From: Clostridia bacterium
GTDB taxonomy: Bacteria > Bacillota > Clostridia > Oscillospirales > RGIG577
DNA: 37,700 bases
Assembly (NCBI GenBank): GCA_017513095.1
Contig: JAFWDJ010000006.1
Coordinates: forward strand, 1 to 37,700
Direction of reading: 5' to 3'
How positions within the stretch are numbered: the stretch's first letter is position 1; every line of letters starts with the position of its first letter. Below the pieces are notes generated by a model. The model saw only the letters and a program-made list of their open reading frames with translations. It was not told the origin of the DNA and did no database searches. The position numbers and the translations under genes were made by a program. Below, in pieces: positions 3,824 to 37,700 of the stretch.

Positions 3824-3856
3824 ACCCCACGACGTTTGTAAAGGAGTTTGATCCAA

Positions 3857-5533
3857 ATGGCGGATTGTCTCAGGCTTAAAAAATCCAACTGCAGGAACTG
3901 CTATAAGTGCATAAGGCACTGTCCCGTAAAATCCATCCGCTTCTCCGCGGGACAGGCCAACATAATAGGCGACGAATGCATACTCTGCGGCCACTGCTTC
4001 GTAGTATGCCCGCAGGAGGCAAAGGAAATTGTCGACGAGACCGAGAAGGTGCGCGTTCTCTTGAAAAGCGGCGATCCCGTCGTTGTGAGCCTCGCTCCGT
4101 CGTTCGCGGCGAATTACGACGGCGTGGGCATCGAGGCCATGCGCGAGGCGTTAAAATCGCTCGGCTTTTACGACGCCGAGGAGACGGCGCTCGGCGCAAC
4201 GATAGTAAAGCGGGAATACGACAGGCTGCTTTCGGAGGATAAGCGCGATATACTCATCTCGTCGTGCTGCCACAGCGTTAATCTGCTGATACAGAAGTAT
4301 TTCCCCTCATGCCTTCCCTATCTTGCCGACGTGCTCTCGCCCATGCAGGCGCACTGCGTCGATATAAAGCGGCGCATACCTGGCGCGAAAACGGTATTCA
4401 TAGGCCCGTGCGTCGCGAAAAAGGACGAGGCGCAGATCTATCCCGATATGGTGGACGCCGTGCTCACCTTCGAGGAGCTTACAAATATGATGAAGGACGA
4501 AGGGATAGAGCCGCGGCGCGAGATTATACCGAACGACGAAAGCCGCGCACGATTCTTCCCCACTACCGGCGGCATTTTAAAGACGATGAAAAAGGACGCG
4601 CCGGGCTATTCGTACATGGCGCTCGACGGCGTTGAGAACTGCATATCCGCGCTTCGCGATATAGAACGCGGACTTATACACAACTGCTTTATTGAGATGT
4701 CGGCCTGCGCGGGAAGCTGCGTCGGAGGCCCCGTTATGGAGAAGTACCACAAGAGCCCCGTGCGCGACTATATGTCGGTCGCGCGCTTCGCGGGAAAGCG
4801 CGACTTCGATATACCGCAGCCCGCCGAGTCAAGCATACGAAAGCTATTTGACCCGATACAACATAACGCCGCGATGCCCTCTGAGGAGAAGATAAAGGAA
4901 ATCTTAACGGAGATGGGCAAGACCGACCCCTCGCTTGAGCTTAACTGCGGCTCGTGCGGATATAACAGCTGCCGCGAAAAGGCCATAGCGATATATCAGG
5001 GCAAGGCCGAGATGTCAATGTGCCTGCCGTTCCTTATGGCGAAGGCGGAGACACTTTCGGACACCATCGTAAACAATACGCCGAACGGGCTTATCGTTTT
5101 AAACGACCGTCTCGAGGTGCAGCAGATAAACTCCGCGGCGATGAAGATAATGAACTTAAATTCCGCGACGGCCATTTTGGGCGACAACGTCGTGAGGATA
5201 CTTGACCCGATAGTATTCCTTGACGTCCTGGAAAGCGGCAAGGGCGTATATAACGACCGCGTATATCTCACCGAATACAACCGCTACGTCGAGCAGACCG
5301 TTGTTCCCGCCGAGGACGGGCGTATGCTCATCTACATAATGCGCGACGTCACCGACGAGGAGCACGAAAGGAAGAAGAAGGAGGAAATAAGCCGCCAGAC
5401 GGTAGAGGTGGCCGACCGCGTCGTTGACAAGCAGATGCGAATCGTTCAGGAGATAGCCTCGCTGCTCGGAGAAACGGCCGCCGAAACGAAAATTGCTCTT
5501 TCGAAGCTTAAGGAGTCGATAAACGATGAATGA
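3857..5533 (+). CDS. hydS: Sensory (group C-like) [FeFe] hydrogenase with PAS domain
   Basis: A 558-residue soluble iron-sulfur protein. Two CxxCxxCxxxC clusters lie at residues 12-22 and 41-51. The H-cluster domain follows, with the three cysteine motifs SSCCHS (Cys137-138), GPCVAKKDE and MSACAGSCVGGP. A further CGSCGYNSC...C four-cysteine FeS domain comes next, then a PAS domain starting near LSDTIVNNTPNGLIVL, and a C-terminal helix ending in the stop. No histidine kinase or output domain is present. This architecture matches HydS, the putative H2-sensing hydrogenase of Ruminococcus albus and Thermotoga. ATG 3857 with AAGGAG ten bases upstream is chosen over the TTG at 3848. The stop overlaps the phosphatase start by eight bases, implying translational coupling and joint signalling. 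Confidence 0.88.
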   Translation: MADCLRLKKSNCRNCYKCIRHCPVKSIRFSAGQANIIGDECILCGHCFVVCPQEAKEIVDETEKVRVLLKSGDPVVVSLAPSFAANYDGVGIEAMREALKSLGFYDAEETALGATIVKREYDRLLSEDKRDILISSCCHSVNLLIQKYFPSCLPYLADVLSPMQAHCVDIKRRIPGAKTVFIGPCVAKKDEAQIYPDMVDAVLTFEELTNMMKDEGIEPRREIIPNDESRARFFPTTGGILKTMKKDAPGYSYMALDGVENCISALRDIERGLIHNCFIEMSACAGSCVGGPVMEKYHKSPVRDYMSVARFAGKRDFDIPQPAESSIRKLFDPIQHNAAMPSEEKIKEILTEMGKTDPSLELNCGSCGYNSCREKAIAIYQGKAEMSMCLPFLMAKAETLSDTIVNNTPNGLIVLNDRLEVQQINSAAMKIMNLNSATAILGDNVVRILDPIVFLDVLESGKGVYNDRVYLTEYNRYVEQTVVPAEDGRMLIYIMRDVTDEEHERKKKEEISRQTVEVADRVVDKQMRIVQEIASLLGETAAETKIALSKLKESINDE

Positions 5534-6701
5534 TCTGTGCGCCGACATAGGATACAGCAGCATAAACCACATAGGCGAGCAGCTCTGCGGCGACCACGTC
5601 GACGTGGTGGAGAACGGCGATGATTCCTCCGTCGCAGTCCTTGCCGACGGGCTCGGAAGCGGTGTAAAGGCAAGCATTCTCTCAACGCTCACCTCAAAGA
5701 TAATCTCCACGATGATGGCGGCGGGGCTTTCCGTGGAGGAATGCGTCGAAACGATAGCCGCTACTCTCCCCGTCTGCTCCGTGCGCGGGGTGGCCTATTC
5801 CACATTCACGATAATACATCTGAGGAACAACGAATACGCCGACCTCATCCAGTACGATAATCCGCAGATAATAATGATACGCGACAACGCGTCGTACGAT
5901 TATCCGAAAAAAGAGATGAATATAGGCGGCAAGACCATCTACAAGTCAACGATAAGGCTTCGCGAGAACGACGTTTTCATCGCGATGAGCGACGGATGCC
6001 CCCACGCGGGCATAGGAAAGGCGTATAATTTCGGCTGGAAGCTCGAGGACATCGCAGACTTCATGGAGGTCATGGTAATGTCGAATTATACGGCGAAAAC
6101 GCTCTCCACGATACTCATCGAGGAGTGCAGCAGGCTCTACGGAGGCGAGCCGGGCGACGACGCCACCGCCTGCGTGGTGCGTGTGCGAAAGCGCGTGCCG
6201 ATGAACATACTTTTCGGCCCGCCGCGAAATCCCGACGACGCGGGGCGCATGATGAGCCTTTTCTTCTCAAAGCGCGGCAAGCACATAATCTGCGGAGGCA
6301 CGACCGCCTCGATCGCCGCGAAGTGGCTAAGACGGCCGCTCGTCGCAAGCCTTGACTACAACTCGGGCTCCGACGTGCCGCCCACGGCGTCGATAGAGGG
6401 CGTCGATCTCGTCACGGAGGGCGTCATCACCGTAAACAAGGTCGTGCAGTACGCGCGCGACTATATAAACGACAACAAGAATTACAGCCAGTGGAACTTC
6501 AAAAACGACGGCGCTTCACAGATATGCCGCCTTCTTTTTGAGGAGGCCACCGATATAAACTTTTACGTCGGCCGCGCTATAAATCCCGCGCACCAGAACC
6601 CCGACCTGCCGATAAACTTCAATATAAAGATGAATCTGGTCGAGGATCTGTCCGACGCGCTTAAAAAGATGGGCAAGCGTATAAAGGTAAGCTATTTTTA
6701 A
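5526..6701 (+). CDS. SpoIIE-type PP2C serine/threonine phosphatase
   Basis: A 391-residue protein. Residues 1 to about 220 are a PP2C/SpoIIE phosphatase domain: the metal-binding aspartates are seen in GDHVD (Asp23), LADGLGSG (Asp41), MSDG and GDDATACV. The remaining ~170 residues (from NILFGPPRNPDD) form a second domain I do not recognise, with GGTTASIAAKWL and an ending rich in beta-type sequence. It overlaps the sensory hydrogenase gene by eight bases. Group C [FeFe] hydrogenase genes are known to sit next to PP2C-type phosphatase genes, so it is the likely output of the sensor. The phosphoprotein target is unknown. Confidence 0.87.
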   Translation: MNDLCADIGYSSINHIGEQLCGDHVDVVENGDDSSVAVLADGLGSGVKASILSTLTSKIISTMMAAGLSVEECVETIAATLPVCSVRGVAYSTFTIIHLRNNEYADLIQYDNPQIIMIRDNASYDYPKKEMNIGGKTIYKSTIRLRENDVFIAMSDGCPHAGIGKAYNFGWKLEDIADFMEVMVMSNYTAKTLSTILIEECSRLYGGEPGDDATACVVRVRKRVPMNILFGPPRNPDDAGRMMSLFFSKRGKHIICGGTTASIAAKWLRRPLVASLDYNSGSDVPPTASIEGVDLVTEGVITVNKVVQYARDYINDNKNYSQWNFKNDGASQICRLLFEEATDINFYVGRAINPAHQNPDLPINFNIKMNLVEDLSDALKKMGKRIKVSYF

Positions 6702-6719
6702 AGGAGTGTGTAGACCGAG

Positions 6720-8144
6720 ATGAGAAAATTCGATACAAAAGTCCAGCATCTTAAATACAAGGTCCTGCGCGAGGTGGCAAGATTCGCGTGGCAGGACAGC
6801 CTGCTTGACAATATCCTTCGGATACCCGAGATAATAGTGCCCGGCAAAATACCCACGATGCGCTGCTGCGTTTACAAGGAGCGCGCCATACTTACGGAGC
6901 GCGTGAAGCTCGCGATGGGCGGCAGCATCGACAAGCCCAACGTTATACAGGTCATCGACATCGCGTGCGACGAATGTCCGGCGGCGGGATACGACGTCAC
7001 CGACTCGTGCCGCGGGTGTCTCGCGCACCGCTGCGAGGACGTATGTCCGAGGGGCGCGATATCGTTCGACCACAATTACGTCGCGCACATAGATAAGTCG
7101 AAGTGCATCGAATGCGGCCGCTGCGCCAAGGTATGCCCCTACAACGCCATCACGAACAGAAAGCGTCCGTGTCAGGCGGCGTGCAAAATTAAGGCGATAT
7201 CGATAAGCAGTGACGGCGTGGCGAAGATAGACGACGACAAGTGCATCTCCTGCGGCGCGTGCGTATATCAGTGCCCGTTCGGCGCTATCACCGACAAGTC
7301 GTATATTTTGAACGTCATCGACCTTATAAAGAACAGCGAGAACAACACGAAATACAAGGTGTTCGCCGTTGTCGCACCGTCCATCTCGAGCCAGTTCACC
7401 TACGCGAAGCTCGGTCAGGTCATCTCGGGCTTAAAGGAGCTCGGCTTCTTCACGGTCGTCGAGGCCGCGCTCGGCGCGGATATGGTGGCCTACGCCGAGG
7501 CGAAGGAGCTTTACGAGAAGGGCTTTCTTACAAGCTCGTGCTGCCCCGCGTTCGTGTCGTACATAAACTCCGCCTTCCCCGCGTTAAAAGAGCACATATC
7601 GCATAATCTCTCGCCCATGGCGTCTATCGCTAAGTATATAAAGGACACGCATGAGAACGTAAAAGTCGTATTCATCGGCCCCTGCACCGCAAAGAAGGCC
7701 GAGGTGCGCCTTAAGACCGTGCGTCCGTACGTCGATTCCGCGCTCACGTTCGAGGAGCTTCAGGCGCTGTTCGACAGCCGCGATATCGATATAACGTCGC
7801 TTGGGGAGGACGTTTTGGACAACGCCTCGTACTTCGGCAGAATATTCGCGCGAAGCGGCGGACTTACCGACGCCGTGGCGCAGGGCTTAAAGGAGCACGG
7901 CTTTAATGATTTCGAGCTTAAAGCCTGCACCTGCGACGGCATCGAGGAATGCAAGACGGCGCTGCTTCGCAAGAGCAAGGGCGTGCTCCCCGCTAACTTC
8001 ATCGAGGGCATGGCCTGCGAGGGCGGCTGCATCGGCGGCGCGGGCTGCCTCACCCACGGCGAAAAGAACCGCGCCCAAGTCGACAAATACGGCAAGGAAG
8101 CACTCGAGAAGACGATAAGCGACGCAATATCGCTTTTGAAGTAG
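6720..8144 (+). CDS. Catalytic [FeFe] hydrogenase, group B-like, monomeric
   Basis: A 474-residue cytoplasmic enzyme expected to reduce protons to H2 with ferredoxin electrons, or the reverse. An N-terminal cysteine-rich stretch (CDECPAAGY...CRGCLAHRCEDVCP) is followed by ferredoxin-type clusters KCIECGRCAKVCP and KCISCGACVYQCP. The H-cluster ligands are in SSCCPAF, GPCTAKKAE and EGMACEGGCIGGAG. The motif spelling and N-terminal layout fit group B (HydA2 of Ruminococcus albus type) rather than the bifurcating group A. The start follows AAGGAGTG, 18 bases after the phosphatase stop, and the operon ends at the hairpin at 8175-8208. Maturation genes hydEFG are not in the window. Confidence 0.88.
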   Translation: MRKFDTKVQHLKYKVLREVARFAWQDSLLDNILRIPEIIVPGKIPTMRCCVYKERAILTERVKLAMGGSIDKPNVIQVIDIACDECPAAGYDVTDSCRGCLAHRCEDVCPRGAISFDHNYVAHIDKSKCIECGRCAKVCPYNAITNRKRPCQAACKIKAISISSDGVAKIDDDKCISCGACVYQCPFGAITDKSYILNVIDLIKNSENNTKYKVFAVVAPSISSQFTYAKLGQVISGLKELGFFTVVEAALGADMVAYAEAKELYEKGFLTSSCCPAFVSYINSAFPALKEHISHNLSPMASIAKYIKDTHENVKVVFIGPCTAKKAEVRLKTVRPYVDSALTFEELQALFDSRDIDITSLGEDVLDNASYFGRIFARSGGLTDAVAQGLKEHGFNDFELKACTCDGIEECKTALLRKSKGVLPANFIEGMACEGGCIGGAGCLTHGEKNRAQVDKYGKEALEKTISDAISLLK

Positions 8145-26944: not shown

Positions 26945-27575
26945 GGTATTTAGAACCAAGGTTCTAATACTCCTTTTCGCCTGCCGGCGGGGCCTGCTTT
27001 TGTAACCAAAAGCAGCAAAAGTTCCGGGGGAAATCGGCTGAGGCTCGCGGGGCTTGTGCTAAATGAAGCTCACATCAACGCTTAGCGCCGATTTCCCCCC
27101 GTCCCCCTTGGTTATTTATGGCATCGACATCATCCATCCACATAAGATGACGCAATCAAAATCAGACGGGCGCACGATGCGCCCGACACGGCTTGGCCGG
27201 CGGAGTTGTTTTCAGCGGAAGCCAAAGACTTGGAGCGGCTCGGCCGCGGAATTTGATGACGCGCGAAGTTGTCTCGAATGATGCCTCATGCCGAGGCAAC
27301 TATAAGTAAAAGCGTAAATTGCGCCTTTTTGCCGTGGGAGAAGGCGAAATCTATTGTCAAGTAACGCCGAGCGGAGAGGCCCGCTCGCGTGGCCGGGAGC
27401 GAGGGAGCGAAGAGTCCGAGAGGCGGCAGTCCCCCGGAAATTTTGGTTCTTTTGTTTCCAAAAGAACCCCCGCGGGAGGCGATTTGAGTCTTTAGAGCAA
27501 AGCTCTAAAAAAGAATATATGTTAAAGAAGAACATTATGCCGTAAATAGGGCAAAAGATAGGTTAAATACTTGGC
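26945..27575 (+). repeat. Full-length copy of dispersed repeat with imperfect inverted ends (copy C3)
   Basis: About 630 noncoding bases. The left end has TTAGAACCAAGGTTCTAA (26950-26967), a GCTTTTGTAACCAAAAGC hairpin and the GGGGGAAATCGGC/GCCGATTTCCCCC stem. The middle has the GGGCGCA/TGCGCCC hairpin and a core with GAATTTGATGACGC, GAGGCAACTATAAGTA and AAATTGCGCCTTTTTGCCG. The right end inverts the left-end landmarks: GGTTCTTTTGTTTCCAAAAG, CCCGCGGGAGGCG and TTTAGAGCAAAGCTCTAAA. The core matches 31990-32230 closely. Open frames here are not supported as genes. Confidence 0.78.
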
Positions 27576-31394: not shown

Positions 31395-31396
31395 AC

Positions 31397-31430
31397 AAAA
31401 AAACAGACGGCGAACGCCGTCTGTTTTTTT
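31397..31430 (+). terminator. Terminator of the lysine transporter operon
   Basis: AAAAAAACAGACGGCG (31397-31412) and CGCCGTCTGTTTTTTT (31415-31430) form a long perfect stem around AA, with a T-tract. It is symmetric and could act both ways. Confidence 0.9.
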
Positions 31431-31436
31431 GTCCGT

Positions 31437-31567
31437 AAGCCATCCCCATAGGGGAAGGCTTTTTTGTTCGCCAAAGCGACTCCATCGGTCAAGCCGTGTC
31501 GGGCGCATCGTGCGCCCCCAAAGCTCCCTCTCCGAGGGAGCTGTCAGCTTTGCTGACTGAGGGAGTC
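31437..31567. repeat. Short palindromic repeat block with fragment of the dispersed repeat
   Basis: Contains CCCCATAGGGG, a fragment of the long repeat (GTCAAGCCGTGTCGGGCGCA, then TGCGCCC, at about 31489-31519), and the GCTCCCTCTCCGAGGGAGC hairpin followed by GTCAGC/GCTGAC and GAGGGAG. The last part is the inverted counterpart of the block at 2443. Confidence 0.7.
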
Positions 31568-31582
31568 CTCTCGTCCCTCGCA

Positions 31583-31625
31583 TGTCATTCTGAGGAGCGA
31601 ATGCGACGAAGAATCTTAAAGCTTC
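31583..31625 (-). repeat. Short dispersed motif, inverted copy
   Basis: Reverse-complement relative of 2387-2428: it starts TGTCATTCTGAGGAGCG and ends AAGAATCTTAAAGCTTC. It lies in the same place relative to the long repeat and the short block. The linker to 31728 also matches the linker at 2336-2386, inverted. No function is visible. Confidence 0.6.
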
Positions 31626-31727
31626 TCTTTTGCAGGGCTTACCGTTCTTTCGCACACTTTGAACTTCAATAATCCTTGTTCAAAGTCCTTAACCAATCTA
31701 AAGCCTTACTTACGTCTATGCATTCTG

Positions 31728-32385
31728 ATTAAACATTATTTTTTTCAGAACTCCGTTCTGAAGACTTTTGTCGCCTCCCGCGGGGGTTCTTTTGGAAACA
31801 AAAGAACCAAAATTTCCGGTGGAAATCGGCTGAGGCTCGCCGGGCTTCAGCAAAAGGCAATCTTCCTGCAGCGCTTAGCGCCGATTTCCCCCCGTCCCCC
31901 TTTGATTTGCCGCCCTCGAAGTCACTCATCATCATAAGATAACGCCTTCTCAATCAGACGGGCGCACGATGCGCCCGACACGGCTTGACCGATGGAGTGG
32001 CTTCGCCTTGCAGAAAGCAGCTTTCAGCGGGCGCGAAGACTTGGAGCGTCTCGGACGCGGAATTTGATGACGCACGATGATATCTTGAATGATGCTTCAT
32101 GTCGAGGCAACTATAAGTATGAGTGTAAATTGCGCCTTTTTGCCGTGGGAGAAGGCGAAAAATATTGCAAAGTAGCGCCGAGCGGAGAGGCCCGCGCAAG
32201 CGTGGCCGGGAGCGAGGAGCGGAGAGACGGAGAGGCGGCAGCCTCTCGGAAATTTTGCTACTTTTGTTTCCAAAAGTAGGCCCCTCCGGCAGGAGACAAA
32301 AGTCTTTAGAACGGAGTTCTAAAAAAGAATTATGTTGAAGCAGAACATTATGCCGTAAATACGGCAAAAGATGGGTTGAATACTT
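31728..32385 (+). repeat. Full-length copy of dispersed repeat with imperfect inverted ends (copy C4)
   Basis: About 655 noncoding bases, the best preserved copy. The left end shows CAGAACTCCGTTCTG, CCCGCGGGGGTTCTTTTGG and GGAAATCGGC/GCCGATTTCC. The right end shows the inverse forms TACTTTTGTTTCCAAAAGTA, CCTCCGGCAGGAG and TTTAGAACGGAGTTCTAAA. The core (31990-32230) is nearly the same as in the copy at 26945. A 157-residue minus-strand frame across it is not a credible gene: it spans the repeat ends and lacks a ribosome site. Confidence 0.8.
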
Positions 32386-32424
32386 GGCGATAAAGCTTAT
32401 TTTGAGCTTAAAGTATAAATAGAG

Positions 32425-32640
32425 CATAGCGGTGACAATCCCTCAGTCGGCTGCGCAGACAGCTCCCTTTACACAAGGGAGCTAATATGAGGGGACGCAC
32501 GCGCCGTTGGCGCTGCACCTCATCCGACGGCTCCGCCGCCGCCTTCCCCTCGAAGGGGAAGGCAATACGGGGGACAATCCTTCAGTCTGCATCGCCGCCC
32601 GCCTCCCGCGGAGAGGGAGGCAAATCCCTTTTCCCCGGCA
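32425..32640. repeat. Short palindromic repeat block after copy C4
   Basis: Begins GACAATCCCTCAGTCGGC and contains GCTCCCTTTACACAAGGGAGC, GGCGC stems and CCTTCCCCTCGAAGGGGAAGG. It is the inverted counterpart of bases 1-127 in the same order, followed by another CTCCCGCGGAGAGGGAGG hairpin. The 1.3 kb from 31395 to 32687 holds only the terminator and repeats listed here. Confidence 0.75.
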
Positions 32641-32960: not shown

Positions 32961-33005
32961 ATATAACGGTTTCGCGCGGCGCATAATATCCGCGAGGTGA
33001 TAATT

Positions 33006-33467
33006 ATGACGCTTACAGAAAAGGAAACCATGATACTCAGCGATTTAAAGTCACAGGAGCAGCTCTGCATCGACAAATATTCGCGCTATTCGTCCGAGGC
33101 GCACGACACGCAGCTTTGCGATCTCTTTTCGCGGCTCGAGTCTGTCGAGCGCACGCATCTTAATACGATAAACGGGATGCTCTCGGGCACGGCGCCGAAA
33201 ACGGGGCAGTCCTCAAAGCCCGCGCCCGCGCCGAAGTTCAAGAGCACCTACACATCGGGCAGCACGGACGCAGCCATGAAGGATGACTGTTACCTCTGCA
33301 CGGACGCGCTTGCGAACGAAAAGCACGTCTCCTCGGTCTACGATATGTCGGTCTTTGAATTCAAGGACCCCGCCATGCGCGACGCCTTAAACCACATCCA
33401 GAAGGAAGAACAGCAGCACGGAAAGATGATATACGACTATATGGCCGCAAACGGCATGTACTCATAA
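33006..33467 (+). CDS. Spore coat-like (CotF/ferritin-like helical) protein
   Basis: A 153-residue helical protein with two helical parts. The N-terminal half shows LTEKETMILSDLKSQEQLCI and DLFSRLESVERTHLNTIN; a Pro/Lys/Ser linker (about residues 65-85) leads to a second half with DDCYLCTDALANEKHVSSVY and a late HIQKEEQQHGKMIYDYM. This is the CotF/spore-coat family pattern: ferritin-like four-helix segments with Glu and His in helices. In Firmicutes such proteins are coat or general stress proteins. Four Cys residues are unusual. ATG 33006 with GAGGTGAT is chosen over the GTG at 32997. It follows the BofA-like gene and ends at a strong terminator. Confidence 0.78.
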   Translation: MTLTEKETMILSDLKSQEQLCIDKYSRYSSEAHDTQLCDLFSRLESVERTHLNTINGMLSGTAPKTGQSSKPAPAPKFKSTYTSGSTDAAMKDDCYLCTDALANEKHVSSVYDMSVFEFKDPAMRDALNHIQKEEQQHGKMIYDYMAANGMYS

Positions 33468-33498
33468 CAGAGCCGCCGATAAAGGGCTGTGTCTGCCT

Positions 33499-33527
33499 GC
33501 GGGAGCGTTTTCGCTCCCGCGTTTTTT
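33499..33527 (+). terminator. Terminator after the spore coat-like gene
   Basis: GCGGGAGCG and CGCTCCCGC form a nine-base-pair stem with a four-base loop, followed by GTTTTTTG. Confidence 0.88.
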
Positions 33528-33600
33528 GCGTCGGGGCGGCCGTTCGTTTGTGAAAAATGTACGTCTGCGAAAAAAATTTACTTCTTTTTTTGTAGGCACT

Positions 33601-33629
33601 TGCCAAATGCAAGGAAATAGATTACAATT
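33601..33629 (+). promoter_or_regulatory. Promoter of the three-paralogue operon
   Basis: TTGCCA at 33601-33606 and TACAAT at 33624-33629 with a 17-base spacer, about 40 bases before the first start codon. Confidence 0.7.
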
Positions 33630-33669: not shown

Positions 33670-34029
33670 ATGAAAACGAAAGAGCTTGACGCTTTCATGA
33701 AGGAGAAAATAGGCGATCTGCTTGCCGCGCCCAACTGCTATAAGGATCTTCGCGTTATCGCGGAGGACTGGCTCAAGGCTGCGGGCACCGAGCGCGAGGC
33801 CGAGGCGACGGCCGCCCTTATCAAGGAGCTTGAGGCCGACGTACTGTCGATAGACCAGATGATAGAGATAGTGGGCAGCGACTTCGGCATCAAGAAGTTC
33901 GGCGCGGAGAACTCCGCGAAATACGTGGCGCGCGCGAAGGAGCTTAAAGCGCAGGGCGAAACGATATGCTTCTGCAAGGCCTGCAAGACGGGCCACGCTA
34001 TACTCGAAAGAAAGGCCGAGCTTATCTGA
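33670..34029 (+). CDS. CFCxAC-motif helical protein 1 (Hsp90-labelled small family), unknown function
   Basis: A 119-residue, mostly helical soluble protein. Alignment by eye with the next two genes shows invariant Trp34-Leu35, Ala37, Gly39-Thr40 and a C-terminal CFCKAC, with Cys100, Cys102 and Cys105 in all three, then a charged IxxxRKAEL end. I recall related proteins in gut Firmicutes carrying the name Hsp90 in databases; nothing in the sequence supports a chaperone ATPase of that kind. The three cysteines may bind a metal or form disulfides. AAAGGAGG precedes the ATG. It is the most diverged of the three (ICFC in place of WCFC). Confidence 0.8.
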   Translation: MKTKELDAFMKEKIGDLLAAPNCYKDLRVIAEDWLKAAGTEREAEATAALIKELEADVLSIDQMIEIVGSDFGIKKFGAENSAKYVARAKELKAQGETICFCKACKTGHAILERKAELI

Positions 34030-34078
34030 GGCGAATACATTAAATTTTAAATTAAAATATACTAAGGAGGAAAAAACA

Positions 34079-34441
34079 ATGAAGAATCCCGAGCTTAACG
34101 CTTTCGTAAAGGAGCGCGTAAACATAATGCTGGAGTCTTCCCACACCTACAAGGACTTAAAGGCTTGCTGCCAGGCATGGCTCGACGCTGAGGGCACCGA
34201 TAAGGAGCCCGAGGCTTTAAAGGCGCTTCTTGCGGAGGCTGAGGCGGACGTTATGGACCTCGACCACGTTATCCAGATAGTTACGTCCGAGGGCGGCAAG
34301 CGCTACTTCGGCGAGGCCGTTGCAAAGGCATATCACGAGGAAGCCGTAAGACGTAAGAACAACGGCGAGAAGTGGTGCTTCTGCGAGGCATGCGTTGCCT
34401 CAAGAGAGCTTACCGAAAAGAAAGCCGAAATACTCGCATAG
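34079..34441 (+). CDS. CFCxAC-motif helical protein 2, unknown function
   Basis: A 120-residue paralogue of the genes on either side. It keeps LNAFVKERV at the start, Trp34, GTDKEPEAL (residues 39-47), ADVMDLDHVIQIV in the middle and GEKWCFCEACVAS with Cys100, Cys102 and Cys105. Two extra cysteines (Cys30, Cys31) lie near Trp34, and Cys31 is shared with the third protein. AAGGAGG stands eight bases before the ATG, 49 bases after the first gene. Codons (TTA, GCA, GTA) suggest stronger expression than the first gene. No signal peptide or membrane segment. Confidence 0.8.
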   Translation: MKNPELNAFVKERVNIMLESSHTYKDLKACCQAWLDAEGTDKEPEALKALLAEAEADVMDLDHVIQIVTSEGGKRYFGEAVAKAYHEEAVRRKNNGEKWCFCEACVASRELTEKKAEILA

Positions 34442-34477
34442 AGTTTACATAATATTATAATACAGGAGGTGCCCGCA

Positions 34478-34837
34478 ATGAAAAATCCGGCGGCTGAACA
34501 GTTTTTTAAAGATAAGGTAACCGAAGTTATGAACGCTTCGCACGCTAACATCCACTTAAAGCGCGCATGCAAGCTGTGGCTCGATGCCGTAGGCACGGAC
34601 AAGGAGGAGGAGATGTCGAAAAAGCTTATCGCGAGACTCGAGGGCGACGTGCTCCCGATGGACGAGCTCATCTGGCTCTTAAATCTTCCCGGCGCTAAGG
34701 CTCATTTCGGCGAAGAGATGGTAAAGGCATTCTTAAAGGAAGCCGAGGAACGCAGCGCAAAGGGCGAGCAGTGGTGCTTCTGCGACGCCTGCGCCCCCGG
34801 CAGACAGATACTCGACAGAAAAGACGAGCTTGTATAA
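34478..34837 (+). CDS. CFCxAC-motif helical protein 3, unknown function
   Basis: A 119-residue paralogue. It shares KNPAAEQFFKDKV, CKLWLDAVGTDKEEE (Cys31, Trp34), GDVLPMDELIWLL and GEQWCFCDACAPGRQI with Cys100, Cys102 and Cys105. ATG 34478 is chosen because AGGAGG lies just before it; the GTG at 34469 overlaps that site. It lies 36 bases after the second gene and is followed by a strong terminator. Each gene has its own good ribosome site, so three products are made from one transcript, which fits subunits of one assembly or division of labour. Confidence 0.8.
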   Translation: MKNPAAEQFFKDKVTEVMNASHANIHLKRACKLWLDAVGTDKEEEMSKKLIARLEGDVLPMDELIWLLNLPGAKAHFGEEMVKAFLKEAEERSAKGEQWCFCDACAPGRQILDRKDELV

Positions 34838-34852
34838 TTGAATAAACTCAAA

Positions 34853-34887
34853 GCCGCGGAAGGATTCCCCTTCCGCGGCACTTTTTT
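34853..34887 (+). terminator. Terminator of the three-paralogue operon
   Basis: GCCGCGGAAGG and CCTTCCGCGGC form an 11-bp stem with a five-base loop, followed by ACTTTTTT. It may also stop the convergent SLH gene transcript from the other strand. Confidence 0.88.
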
Positions 34888-37420: not shown

Positions 37421-37700
37421 TTGGCTCCCTCTTCGAGGGAGCTGTCAGCTCTGCTGACTGAGGGAGTTGTTCGGCCCTTCCCTTTCTCCGCAGGGGTTGG
37501 TGGTTTACATAAAGCCTTCCCCTTCGAGGGAAAGGTGGACGCTGTGCGGCCGGATGAGGTGCAGCGCCATCGGCGCGTGCGTTCATTTTGGCTCCCTCTT
37601 CGAGGGAGCTGTCTGCGCAGCAGACTGAGGGAGTTGTTCGGCCCTTCCCTTTCTCCGCAGGGGTTGGTGGTTTACATAAAGCCTTCCCCTTCGAGGGGAA
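37421..37700. repeat. 167-bp tandem repeat of the short palindromic type (runs off the window)
   Basis: The unit starting TTGGCTCCCTCTTCGAGGGA at 37421 begins again at 37588, an offset of 167 bases; the second copy is cut by the window end after 113 bases. Each unit contains GCTCCCTCTTCGAGGGAGC, GTC..GAC stems, CAGGGGTTGGTGGTTTACAT and CCTTCCCCTTCGAGGG. The copies differ slightly (GTCAGCTCTGCTGAC against GTCTGCGCAGCAGAC). No gene is seen here. Confidence 0.85.

Follow-up and report, generated by a model that had tools for sequence, protein, structure and literature searches.

Three tandem genes of a Clostridia bacterium almost certainly code for free-standing forms of the helical insert in PFOR domain VI

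Pyruvate:ferredoxin oxidoreductase (PFOR) stands at the core of anaerobic metabolism, and drugs against anaerobes either target it or are activated by it. In single-chain PFOR the TPP-binding domain (domain VI) carries an all-helical insert that has no assigned Pfam domain and that corresponds exactly to residues 879-957 of the Moorella structure 6cin. In the Desulfovibrio africanus enzyme, domain VI as a whole spans residues 786-1170 (PMC8945911). We searched the literature and found no description of the function of this insert or of a free-standing family related to it. Here we have analyzed a window (the whole stretch of 37,700 nucleotides) that contains three small genes in tandem. They are almost certainly free-standing paralogues of the PFOR insert. 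This near certainty covers the origin from the insert only; for origin and proposed role taken together we see about an even chance. The parent domain has been seen in structures of PFOR and, as far as our searches show, its free-standing and switchable form is undescribed.

The gene trio and its surroundings

The trio consists of intact tandem reading frames of 119-120 aa, each with its own start and stop. The features of the locus, in window positions, are the following:

33498..33521, + strand: terminator after the upstream Coat_F gene, a 10-pair stem and T run, separating Coat_F from the trio
33600..33628, + strand: promoter-like site TTGCCA-17 nt-TACAAT, 10/12 consensus matches
33670..34029, + strand: copy 1, 119 aa, CFCKAC, almost certainly a free-standing domain of the PFOR-insert type; model pLDDT 96.2
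34079..34441, + strand: copy 2, 120 aa, CFCEAC
34478..34837, + strand: copy 3, 119 aa, CFCDAC; with 89-91% identity across the genus, the most conserved copy there
34853..34879, + strand: intrinsic terminator of the trio operon, an 11-pair stem with 9 G-C pairs followed by a T run; strong

C100, C102, C105 and W34 occupy identical positions in all three copies, the pairwise identities of which are 42, 36 and 43%. With copy 3 as query, copy 2 was recovered from the same genome at E 4.6e-31 and copy 1 at E 2.7e-19. Judged from their sequences the three are true paralogues, with a similarity far above chance. An earlier note on this DNA had proposed three tandem paralogues with these residues in register, as well as separate ribosome sites, one promoter and one terminator. 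The reading frames and the alignment bear out the former, and the latter agrees with the promoter-like site, the strong terminator and the ribosome sites ahead of the three genes (AAAGGAGG, AAGGAGG and CAGGAGGTG). In both sister species, copy 1 is preceded by promoter-like hexamers of a similar kind. We looked upstream for operators of Rex, PerR, Fur, CtsR, CIRCE and others and found none that was consistent.

Directly upstream of the trio, at 32997-33467, is a gene for a Coat_F domain protein (E 3.7e-17), which is conserved beside the trio only within this genus. Elsewhere in the window (3848-8144) we recognized by eye a row of genes that resembles the gene sets of sensory hydrogenases: their products look like an [FeFe]-hydrogenase with a PAS-like region, a phosphatase and another iron hydrogenase. 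The assembly contains an identical trio on another contig, C14. This contig has 5.8 kb in common with the window and the two diverge at ~31760, inside a repeat, so that we have treated this trio as a contig overlap or strain variant and rejected it as a second operon. Since the overlap diverges inside a dispersed repeat, the join of the window at ~31.7 kb may also be an assembly or strain effect. Dispersed repeats are located at 31741-32563, 31395-31627, 27022-27572, 1974-2577, 1-487 and 37421-37700, both contig ends included.

Relationship to the PFOR insert

Using copy 3 as query against 295 genomes of the order, we found frames of only two kinds, ~120 aa and ~1200 aa long, the long ones being PFOR. 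The match in PFOR sits between FEDNAExG and KKSxWxxGGDGWAYDIG, within the TPP-binding domain VI. A profile of the free proteins, applied to order, class and phylum, likewise found only ~120-aa and PFOR frames, besides frames broken at contig ends. The PFOR insert has a short form (81-112 aa, Cys present or absent) and a long form of 121-132 aa, whose CxCxAC motif is that of the free proteins. Comparing 20 free proteins with 7 long inserts, hhalign gave a probability of 99.9 (E 7e-34) over 110 columns, and 29 free proteins against 12 short inserts gave 98.2 (E 6e-14). The short-insert alignment matches the helices at the N-terminus, the Trp and the helix at the C-terminus, and residues ~59-97 of the free protein (~40) are absent from PFOR. 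The PFOR inserts of the order (loci L050, L051 and L193-L205) form a graded series, in which some have no Cys, others CxC/CxxC and others the full CxCxxC, and there is also the long form with extra helices.

The trio proteins are not themselves PFOR enzymes (TIGR02176), which have TPP, CoA and [4Fe-4S] domains: they are 119-120 aa long and devoid of PFOR Pfam domains; the actual PFOR of this genome is encoded on contig C31. No family was assigned to the free proteins in Pfam and NCBIfam scans, which returned only sub-threshold or single-member noise, in accordance with the earlier description of the family as uncharacterised. PDB sequence searches with the free proteins returned only noise, and a search of the genome contigs a single chance match to a 44-aa frame.

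The AlphaFold (AF2) model of copy 1 is confident (pLDDT 96.2, pTM 0.86) and all-helical. Foldseek alone found no match for it (best E 0.65). In the VIA re-alignment the top match, that is, the best among the chains compared there, was Moorella PFOR 6cin_D 879-957, with Z 10.5 and rmsd 2.2 over 78 aligned residues. A modelled PFOR domain VI with a long insert (pLDDT mostly >82 there) has the same helix order as the free protein. Because helical bundles score easily, and a Z of 10.5 for such a bundle is ambiguous by itself, we take the predicted structural match as confirmation rather than proof.

Distribution of the free copies and their link to PFOR

Sampling within the phylum of the host, we found intact free copies in 37 genomes, of which 15 belong to the order, 8 to the rest of the class and 14 to the rest of the phylum. 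One more genome, G335, carries a fragment with a stop, and no copy was found in phage and viral collections. Three copies are present only in 3 species of this genus; the other 34 genomes have one. The three cysteines are kept in all free sequences read (39/39). To the question raised by the earlier note, whether the genes always occur in tandem, the answer is thus negative, as outside the genus the gene is single. That note had also held that single homologues with lost cysteines would speak against its view; single genes are indeed the rule (34/37 genomes), but no loss of cysteines was seen in the 39 sequences read.

The trio forms one clade in the tree, a genus-specific triplication. Between species its orthologues share 69-91% identity, and dN/dS values of 0.07-0.20 indicate purifying selection on all three copies, so that three diverged copies are kept, as the first reading of the sequence had it. 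When 37 free and 7 fused domains are placed in one tree, the two forms separate (98/91). The exception is the free copy of G157 (family f2), which nests among the fused domains beside PFORs of the same family (100/98), indicating at least two changes between the built-in and the free state.

The gene neighbors of the free copies were also inspected; none recurs outside the genus and none ties the free copies to PFOR or to any other system. The solitary copy of G236 has a G3E GTPase/CobW-like gene with a CICC motif within 20 bases downstream (L075 5585-6901). In G412, a Cys-rich protein resembling the Csp copper storage proteins is encoded two genes from the free copy (L081 4407-4757), probably a coincidence.

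Single-chain PFOR was detected in 36 of the 37 genomes with an intact free copy, the corresponding figures for the samples of phylum and order being 94/199 and 169/197. The one genome in which it was not found (G087) is 93% complete. As PFOR is common in anaerobes, this co-occurrence may reflect lifestyle instead. We have read the PFOR insert in 161 genomes of the order. CxCxxC was present in 0/14 of those with a free copy and in 33/135 of those without (unselected sample, p 0.04; within families, p 0.03), and in 45/147 when all genomes read that lack a free copy are included. For any of CxC, CxxC or CxCxxC the figures were 2/14 against 85/135 (p 0.0009; 0.08 within families). This complementarity suggests a connection between the free copy and the cysteines of the insert, although it is not strong and relatedness remains a confounder. 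The comparison of Cys motifs was made in place of a test of mutual exclusivity between long inserts and free copies, for which zero overlap (7 vs 15 genomes) is uninformative by itself. A simple model in which the free copy replaces an absent part of PFOR was rejected, because free-copy genomes have PFORs that retain a short insert, and this would occupy that position.

Possible role and comparison with known systems

In the model of copy 1 the three Cys lie at a loop-helix junction, with the CxC in the loop and the third Cys in the first turn of the helix that follows. No conserved His, Asp, Glu or further Cys stands out as an obligatory fourth ligand of a tetrahedral site. Asp62 is nearly invariant, but its segment is absent from short inserts that do have CxCxxC, so it is not a required ligand. 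A metal or redox site, as first suggested for this motif, is plausible given the invariance of the cysteines. Most likely the free protein is a PFOR-related accessory with an exposed three-Cys metal or redox site. It would be a small soluble accessory of PFOR-based metabolism, playing in trans the role of the Cys-bearing insert in cis; the site might bind a metal or an Fe-S centre and leave a position open, or perform thiol/disulfide chemistry. Since some PFORs contain this module in cis and it occurs in trans elsewhere, PFOR would be the partner by the usual fusion argument. The three copies could be isoforms that differ in partners or conditions. The complete explanation (origin from the insert, soluble PFOR accessory, three-Cys site and isoforms) is the best that we can offer, and we would put it at an even balance. 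As an example of a role, we would guess at protection or tuning of PFOR under oxidant or metal stress, which we prefer by a small margin to a metal or redox role independent of PFOR. In its strongest version, an undescribed trans-acting partner, that is, a Cys/metal module shuttling between built-in and free states and protecting or regulating PFOR, the proposal is rather doubtful.

The main alternative is that proteins derived from the PFOR insert have since become independent of PFOR and serve to buffer or store metal, or to sense redox state, as small proteins built on a three-Cys helical bundle. We hold this tentatively, as a real contender of lesser probability. It would fit the solitary genes with unrelated neighbors, the CobW-like gene adjoining the G236 copy and the three invariant Cys lacking a conserved fourth ligand. 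Moreover, the next-best VIA matches after PFOR were helical bundles, among them the Csp copper storage proteins, at a Z (7.3-7.6) that lies in the range of unrelated bundles. Csp is a Cys-bearing helical bundle too, but the similarity is weak and possibly generic, as a Z <13 between helical bundles may mean merely a common arrangement. Furthermore, many Cys line the four-helix bundle of Csp, whereas the free proteins have three invariant Cys in one loop. The presence of PFOR in 36/37 free-copy genomes and the repeated cis/trans switches also argue against this alternative.

The earlier note had favoured an undescribed three-subunit system, in which the trio would form one hetero-oligomer with separate subunits. 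All three copies are kept in 3/3 sampled species of the genus, and they are 36-43% identical mutually against 69-91% to their orthologues, which speaks for this idea. However, one copy suffices in 34 other genomes and the homology to the insert of PFOR domain VI is clear, so that this idea was not borne out and we consider it improbable. Homology to part of a known enzyme also comes close to the match with a known enzyme fold that the note itself had named as evidence to the contrary.

The Hsp90 name can be dismissed: RefSeq does call a Monoglobus pectinilyticus relative 'molecular chaperone Hsp90' (WP_320690609.1, ~120 aa, from a 119-aa gene, 62% identical to the free-standing relative used as query), but such ~120-aa proteins belong to the same free-standing family and have Hsp90 in name only, for at 119 aa they lack an Hsp90 domain, 0/29 members match the HATPase or the Hsp90 middle/C-terminal domains, and no heat-shock operator (CIRCE, CtsR) precedes the trio. 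The earlier remark that the label has no visible reason was right.

Of the related genomes sampled here, a few per cent have a member of the family whose misleading name is thereby corrected, and the free-standing copies offer a small soluble object for asking what the PFOR insert does. The closest known system is the domain VI insert of PFOR/NifJ (TIGR02176; Moorella 6cin). The free proteins resemble it in sequence profile, helix order, the conserved Trp and a similar C-terminal helix, and share the CxCxAC motif with some PFORs. They differ from it in being separate proteins with their own genes instead of embedded in the PFOR chain, in having ~40 additional central residues compared with canonical inserts, and in their invariant cysteines, the majority of PFOR inserts being without Cys or having just part of the motif.
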